DNA from: Bacteroidia bacterium
GTDB lineage: Bacteria; Bacteroidota; Ignavibacteria; SZUA-365
Direction: 5' to 3'
Assembly: GCA_027493955.1 (NCBI GenBank)
Contig: JAOSJT010000001.1
Span: 4,946,552 to 5,010,551 of the forward strand
DNA length: 64,000 nucleotides
Positions 12,057 through 15,180 of the stretch are shown in pieces. Within the stretch, counting starts at the first letter, position 1; each line of letters begins with the position of its first letter. The translations under genes and the position numbers were made by a program. The notes beneath the pieces were generated by a model. That model had not been told where the DNA came from, ran no database searches, and worked only from the letters and a program-made list of their open reading frames with translations.

Positions 12057-13034
12057 ATGGCAGGAATACCAAATATTCGTCAGAGTGTGCTCTCCCGTAT
12101 CTGGGAGGAACTGAAGCACATCAATTATCAGCAGCTCAATGCGAAAACCGCTGCCGCGTTCAGCATCTGTCTGGCGGGGACGCGGGAGGAGCTGGCGACC
12201 ATACGGGAATGGCTGTCTTCGATGGACTACCCGCTGCTGAACACATGGTCGGGGGGAGACATTCTGAAAGCCCGTGCAGATCATCGACGCATGGACCGTC
12301 GTATCCGTGAGATCGTGTTGGCCGACGAAGGCGTCCTTGCCACGATGCCCGTTGGTGATGCGGCGATGCTCCGCGATGCGCTGTTGTGTATCACCACCGC
12401 GCGCAGGAAGCAATTGCTTGCCCCGCACTGCACGCGGATGTTTCTCTACTCTGATGGCGACGGTTCGGAAATTGCGCATGAAATACTCGAGACCCTGCCG
12501 GAACATCGTTTCGCATTGAGCTACACCTTCCCCGTGATGCGGCCCGGCCATGCGCGTATTGAGATCCGCGCGACCGCGATACAGAATGCCTCATGGGCGC
12601 TGTTCACGGCCGCGCCGAATCTTTTTCCGAATCCGGGCCAAGTGTTTACCGTGCCCGCGGAGGCCGTTTCAGATTTTTTTGTCATGACAGTCAATGAAAT
12701 CAAGATGATGTTTGAATTGGTGGCGCTGAACGGTCGCCGAGTGCAGCCGCTGCAATGCGTTCCGGAGCTCGGAATCATTCTCGGGCTTGCCAAGTTGGCG
12801 GAGATGACGGCCACGCAGCTCATCGGCAAGGCGCCTGTGGCGGGACCAGCCATAAAGGGCGGCGTGGCATTTGCCTTCACCAGTGCGATTGGCGAGGCAT
12901 TGCTCCTATACGAAATCGGTGGTGTGCAGGTGGGGAAGGATTTCATCGAGCAACGAGCGAAGGCCTGGTTCGAAGAGGGTAAGGCCGTCGCACGTTCGCT
13001 GCTCGAGAAGAAGGGGAAAAAGAAAGGCGGCTGA
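12057..13034 (+). CDS. DUF697-like protein without a GTPase domain
   Basis: A 325-residue protein. The C-terminal third (EIKMMFELVALNGRRVQPLQ, then VPELGIILGLAKLAEMTATQLIG and GPAIKGGVAFAFTSAIGEALLLYEIGG) has the layout of DUF697, a membrane-associated module often fused to Era-like GTPases or found in YcjF-type proteins. Here no P-loop precedes it; the N-terminal 200 residues instead show AAAFSICLAGTREELATIREWL, which could be a relic of a nucleotide-binding fold without a Walker A motif. A basic tail (LLEKKGKKKGG) ends the protein. Role unknown; membrane attachment inferred. The following 312 nt (13035-13346) hold no gene I can support. Confidence 0.7.
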   Translation: MAGIPNIRQSVLSRIWEELKHINYQQLNAKTAAAFSICLAGTREELATIREWLSSMDYPLLNTWSGGDILKARADHRRMDRRIREIVLADEGVLATMPVGDAAMLRDALLCITTARRKQLLAPHCTRMFLYSDGDGSEIAHEILETLPEHRFALSYTFPVMRPGHARIEIRATAIQNASWALFTAAPNLFPNPGQVFTVPAEAVSDFFVMTVNEIKMMFELVALNGRRVQPLQCVPELGIILGLAKLAEMTATQLIGKAPVAGPAIKGGVAFAFTSAIGEALLLYEIGGVQVGKDFIEQRAKAWFEEGKAVARSLLEKKGKKKGG

Positions 13035-13346
13035 AAAGGGAACGGCAAGGCAACGGCACGGCAATCGACGGCTTCGTTTTGTCGGCCCCCAGATTCCGGC
13101 GTTATATGCATTGCGTTTTACAGGGATTTCCTACCATTACGTGTACGACATGCGGATCGATGCAATCGGTTGCCAGCGAGAGGCAGGTGGTTTTTTGTAC
13201 AATTCAGCAGGAGGTCGGCGGGCAGCAGGGAGGACAGTGTCTGTTCCTACGCGGTGAAGGATTGAGTGACGAATTTCCGCCTTGAATCCGGACCGGGGGG
13301 CTGCATATCTTATCATTCGTGTTTTTCACCGCTTAGGGAGCATCAA

Positions 13347-14159
13347 GTGAAACGACTCAAAGAACTCAGTACCCGCCGCGTGCGGGAATACGACTATTCG
13401 AAGCTGTCGAAGCATCTCGTTGTGTTCAAGACCAGGAAGAATGCCGAGATTCTCGGAACGACGAAAGACGGAATCACCACGCTCAGCGACGCCGGACGCG
13501 CCTTTCTGGATGTGCTCGGTCAAGCGCTGCAGAATTTTCCGTGCATCCGTATTCACGGCATGACCGTTCGTCCCTCCGAAGTGGAACTATCGCTGGAGAT
13601 CACCGAAATCCGGATGCTCCGGGAAGCGCCTCCGGAAGGTAGTGATGAGTGGGTGTATTTTCGTCGCGTGATGACGCTTCCGATGTTCATGGGGTATTTG
13701 AAGATGAACAGCGGTCATCGCATAAACACACTGTTCGGCAAGAAAGGTGGCGAGGTATGGGCTCGGCGCTACGCATCGTGCGTTCTGGAGGACGAGGACG
13801 AATTGGCACGCGTGCACGCGGAGTTGCAGGAGGAGTGGAGCCGCGTGGTGGTGGACCCTCCGCAGCTGAAAACCAAGGAGAAACGGTTCTGCACCTTCAC
13901 CGAGGTTCTGGCATCGGAATTTGGCGGTGCGGGCGCGCTGTCCGTACATGGCCGCAAAGGGCGCGCGGTATCGGGTCAGCTCGCCGGGGCAATGCTTCTC
14001 GGGCGCGTGCTGTTGCTGACGGGCGCGCGGAAGGATGAGGCGGTACGCACTGCGTCGAAGAAGGGCGTCGCGCGAGGAGGAGGCGCCGGCGGGATGGCGG
14101 CCGGACAGGGATCGGTAGTCCGGAGTCTGGGTCCTGCCCGGATATTTCTTTCCGAATAG
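13347..14159 (+). CDS. RAYT-like (REP-associated tyrosine transposase fold) protein with degenerate HUH site
   Basis: A 270-residue protein, GTG start with AGGGAG at 13335-13340. Residues 14-85 align by eye with IS200/RAYT Y1 transposases (YDYS...; expected VVMPNHxHGI at 72-82). There the protein reads MTVRPSEVELSLEI: the HUH histidines are replaced at residues 77-80 (SEVE). Residues 115-165 keep the second conserved block (KMNSGHRINTLFG ... VWARRYASCVLEDEDEL), with Tyr142 where the family has the NYYEH tyrosine. Residues 183-245 (GRKGRAVSGQLAGAMLLGRVLL) resemble the DnaA-C-like helix-turn-helix that ends many RAYTs. Metal-dependent DNA cleavage should be lost; a DNA-binding role is possible. 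A palindrome array lies 220 nt downstream. Confidence 0.62.
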   Translation: MKRLKELSTRRVREYDYSKLSKHLVVFKTRKNAEILGTTKDGITTLSDAGRAFLDVLGQALQNFPCIRIHGMTVRPSEVELSLEITEIRMLREAPPEGSDEWVYFRRVMTLPMFMGYLKMNSGHRINTLFGKKGGEVWARRYASCVLEDEDELARVHAELQEEWSRVVVDPPQLKTKEKRFCTFTEVLASEFGGAGALSVHGRKGRAVSGQLAGAMLLGRVLLLTGARKDEAVRTASKKGVARGGGAGGMAAGQGSVVRSLGPARIFLSE

Positions 14160-14348
14160 TCCGGATCGAAGGAGCGGGTTTCCATTACGAAATTGGGCGG
14201 AGGACACTTCGGAGCGATAAACGTCACGCGAAGAGGGTAAGATATTCGTTTTTATCCGGAAATGGGGCTTCCTGGAGGAGCGTGGAGGGACGGATGGGTG
14301 TGGGGTTAACCGGTTTATGGTAAGCTAAATGGATTGGAGCGGTTCTGT

Positions 14349-14362
14349 AGGGGTGCTCCCCT
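14349..14362. repeat. Short palindrome upstream of the 45-nt-period array
   Basis: AGGGG TGCT CCCCT forms a 5-bp stem 18 nt before the first array unit. Similar GTAGGGG/CCCCTAC arms flank related palindromes in other environmental bacterial genomes as I remember them, so this may be part of the same REP-like element. Confidence 0.4.
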
Positions 14363-14379
14363 GGTTTTGGCGGGTGAGT

Positions 14380-14535
14380 GGGCGATACATGAATCGCCCA
14401 AATCCGCTTTCGGCCGCACCCTCGTGGCGATACATGAATCGCCCAATTATGGTCCCCGTCGCGCTACTGCGGCGATACATGAATCGCCCAGTTCGATCCC
14501 GGCCGAGCCAGTGTGGGTGATGCACGTATCCCCCA
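14380..14535. repeat. REP-like palindrome array, four units at exact 45-nt spacing
   Basis: Unit 1 (14380-14399) reads GGGCGATACATGAATCGCCC, a 7-bp stem with a 6-nt loop. Units 2 and 3 (14426-14445, 14471-14490) repeat the same 20-nt core GGCGATACATGAATCGCCCA. Unit 4 (14516-14535) is degenerate (GGTGATGCACGTATCCCCCA). Core starts are 14381, 14426, 14471 and 14516, so the period is exactly 45 nt with three unrelated 25-nt spacers. The palindrome gives short open frames with MNRP/IHESP repeats on both strands that I do not consider genes. Location just after a RAYT-like gene fits REP/BIME biology; no cas genes are present. Confidence 0.85.
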
Positions 14536-14676
14536 ATTCAGCCACAACCCCTCCCCCTGTGACACATACACGCTCTTGTCCTTTCCTAAAAACCCTGCCT
14601 GTGATTTGCGCACTTCCGGCTCTTGCACGATGGCAGCCGGACGTATATTTTTTCTCAGAACCATGTGGACAGCATC

Positions 14677-15180
14677 ATGCCGATATATGAATTTTTCTGC
14701 GCCGATTGCAATACCATTTTTAACTTTTTCTCGCGCCGCGTGAATACCTCAAGCACACCCACGTGCCCGCGATGTGATCGCGATACGCTGTCGCGGCGCG
14801 TGTCGCGTTTCGCCGTGGTCTCGGGCGGCACACAGGGGGGGGAAGAGGGCGCCGGGCTCGACGATCTTCCGCTCGACGAGAATCAACTGATGCGGGCCAT
14901 GTCCGCTCTGGAGGGCGATATGGGGCGCATCGATGAGTCCGATCCCCGGGCGCTCGCACAGCTCATGCGCAAATTCAGCTCGGCTGCAGGCATGGAATAT
15001 GGCGAGAAAATGGAAGACATGCTGCGCCGCCTGGAACAGGGCGAGGATCCGGATGCTCTCGAAGCTGAAATGGGTGAAATGGGCGAGGACGGTGACATCA
15101 TGGACTTTATTCGCGCAAAAAAGTCCGTCTCCGGGAATAAACCTCCTCCGAAAGTGGACGATACGCTGTATGAAATGTGA
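14677..15180 (+). CDS. FmdB-family zinc-ribbon protein
   Basis: A 167-residue protein starting MPIYEFFCADC. The N-terminal zinc ribbon has two CxxC knuckles (Cys8/Cys11 and Cys30/Cys33) in the typical FmdB order, with the aromatic pattern before Cys8. FmdB proteins are small putative regulators of unknown mechanism. The remaining 120 residues are acidic and helical (LMRAMSALEGDMGRIDES, GEDPDALEAEMGEMGEDG), longer than in minimal family members, and end in a lineage-specific tail. The in-frame ATG at 14623 is upstream of the ribbon and unlikely. No operon partner. Confidence 0.88.
   Translation: MPIYEFFCADCNTIFNFFSRRVNTSSTPTCPRCDRDTLSRRVSRFAVVSGGTQGGEEGAGLDDLPLDENQLMRAMSALEGDMGRIDESDPRALAQLMRKFSSAAGMEYGEKMEDMLRRLEQGEDPDALEAEMGEMGEDGDIMDFIRAKKSVSGNKPPPKVDDTLYEM

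Follow-up and report, generated by a model that had tools for sequence, protein, structure and literature searches.

A multi-copy family of RAYT-derived proteins lacking the catalytic residues, associated with palindrome arrays

The analysed window, a 64,000-nucleotide stretch of a Bacteroidia bacterium genome, carries a gene whose product resembles the TnpA_REP/RAYT (HuH-Y1) proteins but has lost the residues needed for cleavage, and which is followed by an array of palindromes. The locus raises the question of what such a protein does, and how gene and array are propagated. The reading we prefer, to which we assign a probability of about 0.62, is that the protein binds palindromes without cleaving them, and that gene and array are copied together by means other than its own nuclease; we infer both the binding and the copying route. 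Features of the locus are as follows.

13282–13340, + strand: putative promoter (TTGAAT-18-TATCTT) and Shine-Dalgarno sequence AGGGAG (13335–13340), read from the sequence; the block is conserved in the A copies described below
13347–14159, + strand: HUH-dead RAYT-derived protein, 270 amino acids, GTG start
13575–13586, + strand: codons 77–80 (SEVE), aligned with the HuH metal-binding motif of intact relatives
13821–13823, + strand: codon 159 (Glu), aligned with the catalytic Tyr of intact relatives
14160–14379, + strand: G-rich 3' segment
14202–14241, + strand: conserved 40-nucleotide hairpin with 5-bp and 4-bp stems, which has a counterpart at the equivalent site of several B copies
14381–14535, no strand assigned: four-palindrome array with a 45-bp period (copies at 14381, 14426, 14471 and 14516)

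The window protein and its fold

Aligned with intact relatives, which have [ND]-H-x-H at this site, the window protein reads S-E-V-E at residues 77–80, bearing out the replacement of His-x-His that had been proposed from the sequence; the HxH column itself is occupied by E78-V79-E80. The nucleophile column (R-x-Y-I-x-x-N) holds Glu159, and in the "WQ" motif Ala139 takes the place of Gln. The original prediction took Tyr142 for a retained catalytic residue. This residue is instead the conserved tyrosine of W-x-x-x-Y, which is distinct from the nucleophile column.

Curated RAYT/TnpA_REP profiles (PF01797, NF047646) do not recognize the protein. At E ≤ 10 the sole Pfam match is to Y1_Tnp (PF01797) and is sub-threshold (E 0.14, 12.7 bits versus a cut-off of 23), NCBIfam yields zero matches at the same limit, and NF047646, when the genome was searched, scores 11.2 bits where the cut-off is 80. 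A further RAYT-like gene, at 3471489 of the same genome, scores 51.6 bits with NF047646.

The predicted model nevertheless has the Y1 HUH fold of RAYT/TnpA_REP proteins, with a mean pLDDT of 69.5 and values above 90 in the core, the alignment behind it having used intact homologues. Searches with Foldseek and VIA-align, which bear on the protein ahead of its C-terminal third, gave 4er8 as the best solved-structure match (Z 11.7 over 132 residues), with the TnpA proteins of IS608 and ISDra2 next (Z about 10–11). A prediction devoid of the HUH fold would have counted against the original proposal, and this outcome did not arise; descent from RAYTs is supported. A DnaA-C-like C-terminal region had also been proposed. 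We rejected it, as Pfam at E ≤ 10 gave no support and residues 195–270 (pLDDT about 30–40) have no confident model.

Copies, cassettes and palindromes

In the genome, a single contig of 5.24 Mb, 16 places match the window protein, at odds with the low copy number of RAYT/TnpA_REP genes. They fall into three subfamilies: A, with about 10 (the window gene, L024–L031 and the fragment L038), B, with 5 (L032–L036), and C, with 1 (L037). The gene-plus-array unit is therefore multi-copy, which the original prediction overlooked, and the losses are likewise family-wide rather than confined to one lone gene. HuH and Tyr are missing from 13 of the 13 own-genome copies aligned, with one His retained in C; the HuH column reads E-V-E in all A copies, C-V-E or S-I-E in B and S-A-H in C, and the catalytic Tyr (YxxNP) column holds Glu, Ala, Arg or Leu in copies other than the window's.

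Most copies share one order. The gene comes first, followed by a G-rich 3' segment of about 205–275 bp that contains the conserved hairpin, and each subfamily then has palindromes of its own (A, TGGGCGATACATGAATCGCCCA; B, AATTTCGATTCATGAATCGAAATT; C, GTGGGAGCTTCATGGAACGCCCAC). In 9/9 A and 5/5 B genes palindromes lie 204–274 nucleotides past the stop codon, the first lying 225–228 nucleotides past it in all nine A copies. In C, 37-bp units flank the gene on both sides. GC skew is 0.40 to 0.59 before the array and −0.13 to −0.59 after it in each of the 14 copies measured.

The hairpin block of 40 nucleotides has 95% pairing cells in A and 93% in B, versus 32–71% when slid, a comparison that is not blind since the structure was drawn after viewing both sets. 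B shows clearer covariation than A, where it is modest. A model built from A alone finds the matching place in L035 at E 0.005 and, weakly, in L032 (0.077) and L033 (0.75). Rfam gave no match at E ≤ 1 for region 13000–14700. One R1 match, at 2152168, sits in a coding region and was taken as chance.

The REP-like array expected 3' of the window gene is real: four palindromes spaced at exactly 45 bp, three of them identical and the last (14516) 75% identical. Across the 5.24-Mb genome there are 55 occurrences of GGCGATN6ATCGCC, more than chance would give, and 0 of a reversed-pattern control. Because the 45-bp units equal 15 codons, the window array is open in one frame, which reads as repeated AIHESP over 14334–14690. 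Allowing up to one mismatch, the B palindrome occurs at 10 distinct places, all behind the five B genes. The A pattern has 16 of its 55 occurrences, in six places, at loci without a copy by protein search. Palindromes of A type without a protein match (L039–L044) stand singly or in tandem units of 118–151 bp, and some are extended to AAAATGGG...CCCATTTT and resemble bidirectional terminators.

Cognate palindromic repeats thus adjoin these genes as they do those of RAYT/TnpA_REP, and this linkage, together with the subfamily-specific palindromes, makes it likely that the dead protein binds them. The core GATTCATGAATC is common to the dead-family palindromes and to the double-foot repeats of intact relatives. 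The latter, such as GTAGGGGCGATTCATGAATCGCCCCTAC, are found in several phyla, often within the gene, where they encode AIHELP- or AIHESP-like peptides. Since the usual repeat of homologues elsewhere is GTAGGGGCRATTCATGAATYGCCCCTAC, the dead family has inherited its palindrome core. The GT[AG]G guide survives in eroded form in A and can still be read in C, but B has none. By a permissive count, used for the dead family because a stricter distance-based count misses the shorter C feet, 24 of 52 A palindromes have a 5' GT[AG]G and 6 of 52 have both feet, none of the 10 printed B palindromes has a foot, and GTGG/CCAC is kept in 20/20 C palindromes. Intact relatives have symmetric GT[AG]G feet in at least 41 of 67 repeats.

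These feet bear on the possibility that the cassettes are non-autonomous mobile elements, the dead protein being a hitch-hiker or regulator while an intact Y1/RAYT nuclease mobilises the arrays in trans. Potential sources of such a nuclease are present in the same genome: RAYTs with HuH and Tyr intact lie at 888157 and 1003958, and position 4215650 has an IS200-like transposase. However, the palindromes beside the intact genes differ (GAGACGCCCGGCCGGGCGTCTC, GAGACAAGGCATGCCTTGTCTC, CCCCACACTTACGTATGGGG), the foot that cleavage requires is degraded in A and missing in B, and selection on the protein would require a separate cause. We consider this explanation unlikely. The transposase at 4215650, with HuH and Tyr, has a long array around CCCCACACTTACGTATGGGG, which is unrelated to the TTCATGAA palindromes.

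Selection, exchange and a single early loss

Purifying selection acts on the A genes: dN/dS between copies is 0.11–0.30, one near-identical pair apart, and by region is 0.13–0.20 in the core and 0.19–0.64 in the C-terminal part (A pairs split). Random decay alone, the other outcome that would have counted against the original proposal, was not what we found. Some copies are damaged, L024 by an early TGA, L036 by truncation and L038 by reduction to a fragment, as might be expected if the genes were functionless decaying relics. Yet the low core dN/dS, and the intact A and B ORFs at about 33% identity, make this very improbable.

Identity between the window gene and L024–L028 is 90–98% over the first 180 nucleotides and 75–92% beyond, a mosaic that suggests exchange between copies, and L030 and L031 are nearly identical genes with different promoters. 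Both patterns, as well as the low dN/dS and the conserved 3' hairpin, would suit regulators domesticated by the host, binding DNA or RNA at nearby arrays, selected for by the host and copied through rare duplication and gene conversion. On the other hand, neighbouring genes are unrelated at the family loci listed, copies are missing from the 11 same-family genomes searched, and the lesions in L024, L036 and L038 are those of an expendable element. Such domestication seems to us doubtful, if somewhat less so than mobilisation in trans. What stands of the original proposal of a domesticated, non-cleaving protein is its second half, given the lost cleavage residues, the retained HUH fold and selection; a domesticated single-copy host gene is not supported, given a cassette family with 16 matching loci that expanded after catalysis was lost, and there is likewise no support for a retained catalytic Tyr or a DnaA-C-like tail.

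The history of the loss was traced through roughly 50 homologues in other genomes, reached by searching across the class and the phylum and by one GTDB scan. HuH and Tyr are kept in all except one, L115 (3001–3726 of a Methanosaeta-labelled contig), and no HuH-less copy was found in the 11 same-family genomes. The HuH-dead family is seen in one genome and one MAG contig, the former supplying nearly all of the evidence. The L115 ORF contains the palindrome GCGGATTCATGTATCCGC internally and adjoins MsrA/MsrB-like ORFs; it is possibly a binning contaminant. Neither the protein nor its alignment matched anything in plasmids, phages or viral contigs, and the palindrome had no exact match in viral contigs. 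The dead clade has support of 98/95, and of 96/90 once the HuH, Tyr and WQ columns are removed, when it groups at 98/98 with the intact same-family RAYTs L111 and L058. L115 and L037 are on long branches, which leaves their exact places unsure. With or without the motif columns, loss of HuH and Tyr is one state change, and the trees show a single catalytic loss that preceded the multiplication of A and B.

On the reading that we favour, a protein of TnpA_REP/RAYT descent once lost both metal-binding histidines, its nucleophile Tyr and the WQ Gln, kept its fold, and now most likely is a specific, non-cleaving binder of the array behind its own gene. Gene, G-rich 3' segment with hairpin, and array make up a cassette whose spread to about 16 loci came after the loss, and the protein's own HuH nuclease therefore cannot be what multiplies it. 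Copying is likely to go through host replication or recombination at the hairpin arrays together with gene conversion among the copies, or through a nuclease acting in trans. More tentatively, the dead protein, the only one of the cassette, may act with the structured G-rich segment and the array to have the whole copied by the host's replication or repair, a self-propagating cassette that we think possible but improbable; if true, it would be a mode of spread without a cleavage enzyme of its own. Tests for LE/RE ends of the IS200/IS605 type, inserted next to a target tetranucleotide, found no sharp boundary in the 5' flank alignment, and flanking gene order is not conserved in relatives. At L030, where an empty site was sought via hemH/dnaE, the N-terminal part of dnaE was not found near hemH in the five relatives, of which two have short contigs there; the copies may therefore reflect recent movement or gene conversion between older ones.

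Relation to known systems

The family bears on how REP sequences spread and on what RAYTs do. A lineage without HuH and Tyr has remained under selection, re-diversified its palindromes and multiplied, so this natural separation-of-function family, whose sisters are catalytically intact, allows binding and cleavage to be studied separately. Its multiplication with selection-kept genes and matching hairpins indicates that losing the enzyme did not halt spread. HuH-dead RAYTs may have been published earlier; the literature consulted (PMC6006769, PMC8266576) was searched by term.

The closest described group is TnpA_REP/RAYT subclass 2.4 of Quentin et al. 2018 (PMC6006769), characterized by double-foot REPs that are often in the gene and encode AIHELP- or AIHESP-like peptides. 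Class 2 is there low copy, and the main classification sets aside proteins without HuH and Tyr as probably non-functional. On that description the window family shares with subclass 2.4 the fold, the DYSxPG and RRxMxxP...GYxKM...IN blocks, the palindrome core GATTCATGAATC and repeats adjoining the gene. In contrast to it, the window family lacks HuH, Tyr and WQ, has 16 matching loci per genome rather than a low copy number, has eroded (A) or absent (B) guide feet, carries regular arrays of 45 bp (A) and 37 bp (C), and adds the G-rich 3' segment with its hairpin and an extra C-terminal region.

The TnpA proteins of IS200/IS605 elements (IS608, ISDra2) are similar in their Y1 HUH fold (Z about 10–11) and belong to hairpin-linked, multi-copy elements; however, the window family has no catalytic residues, and has an array where the insertion sequences have single end hairpins. 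E. coli TnpA_REP (4er8) and the REPtron offer the best solved-structure match and the same pairing of protein with hairpin, but the E. coli protein is catalytically intact and its REPs are GTAG-footed.
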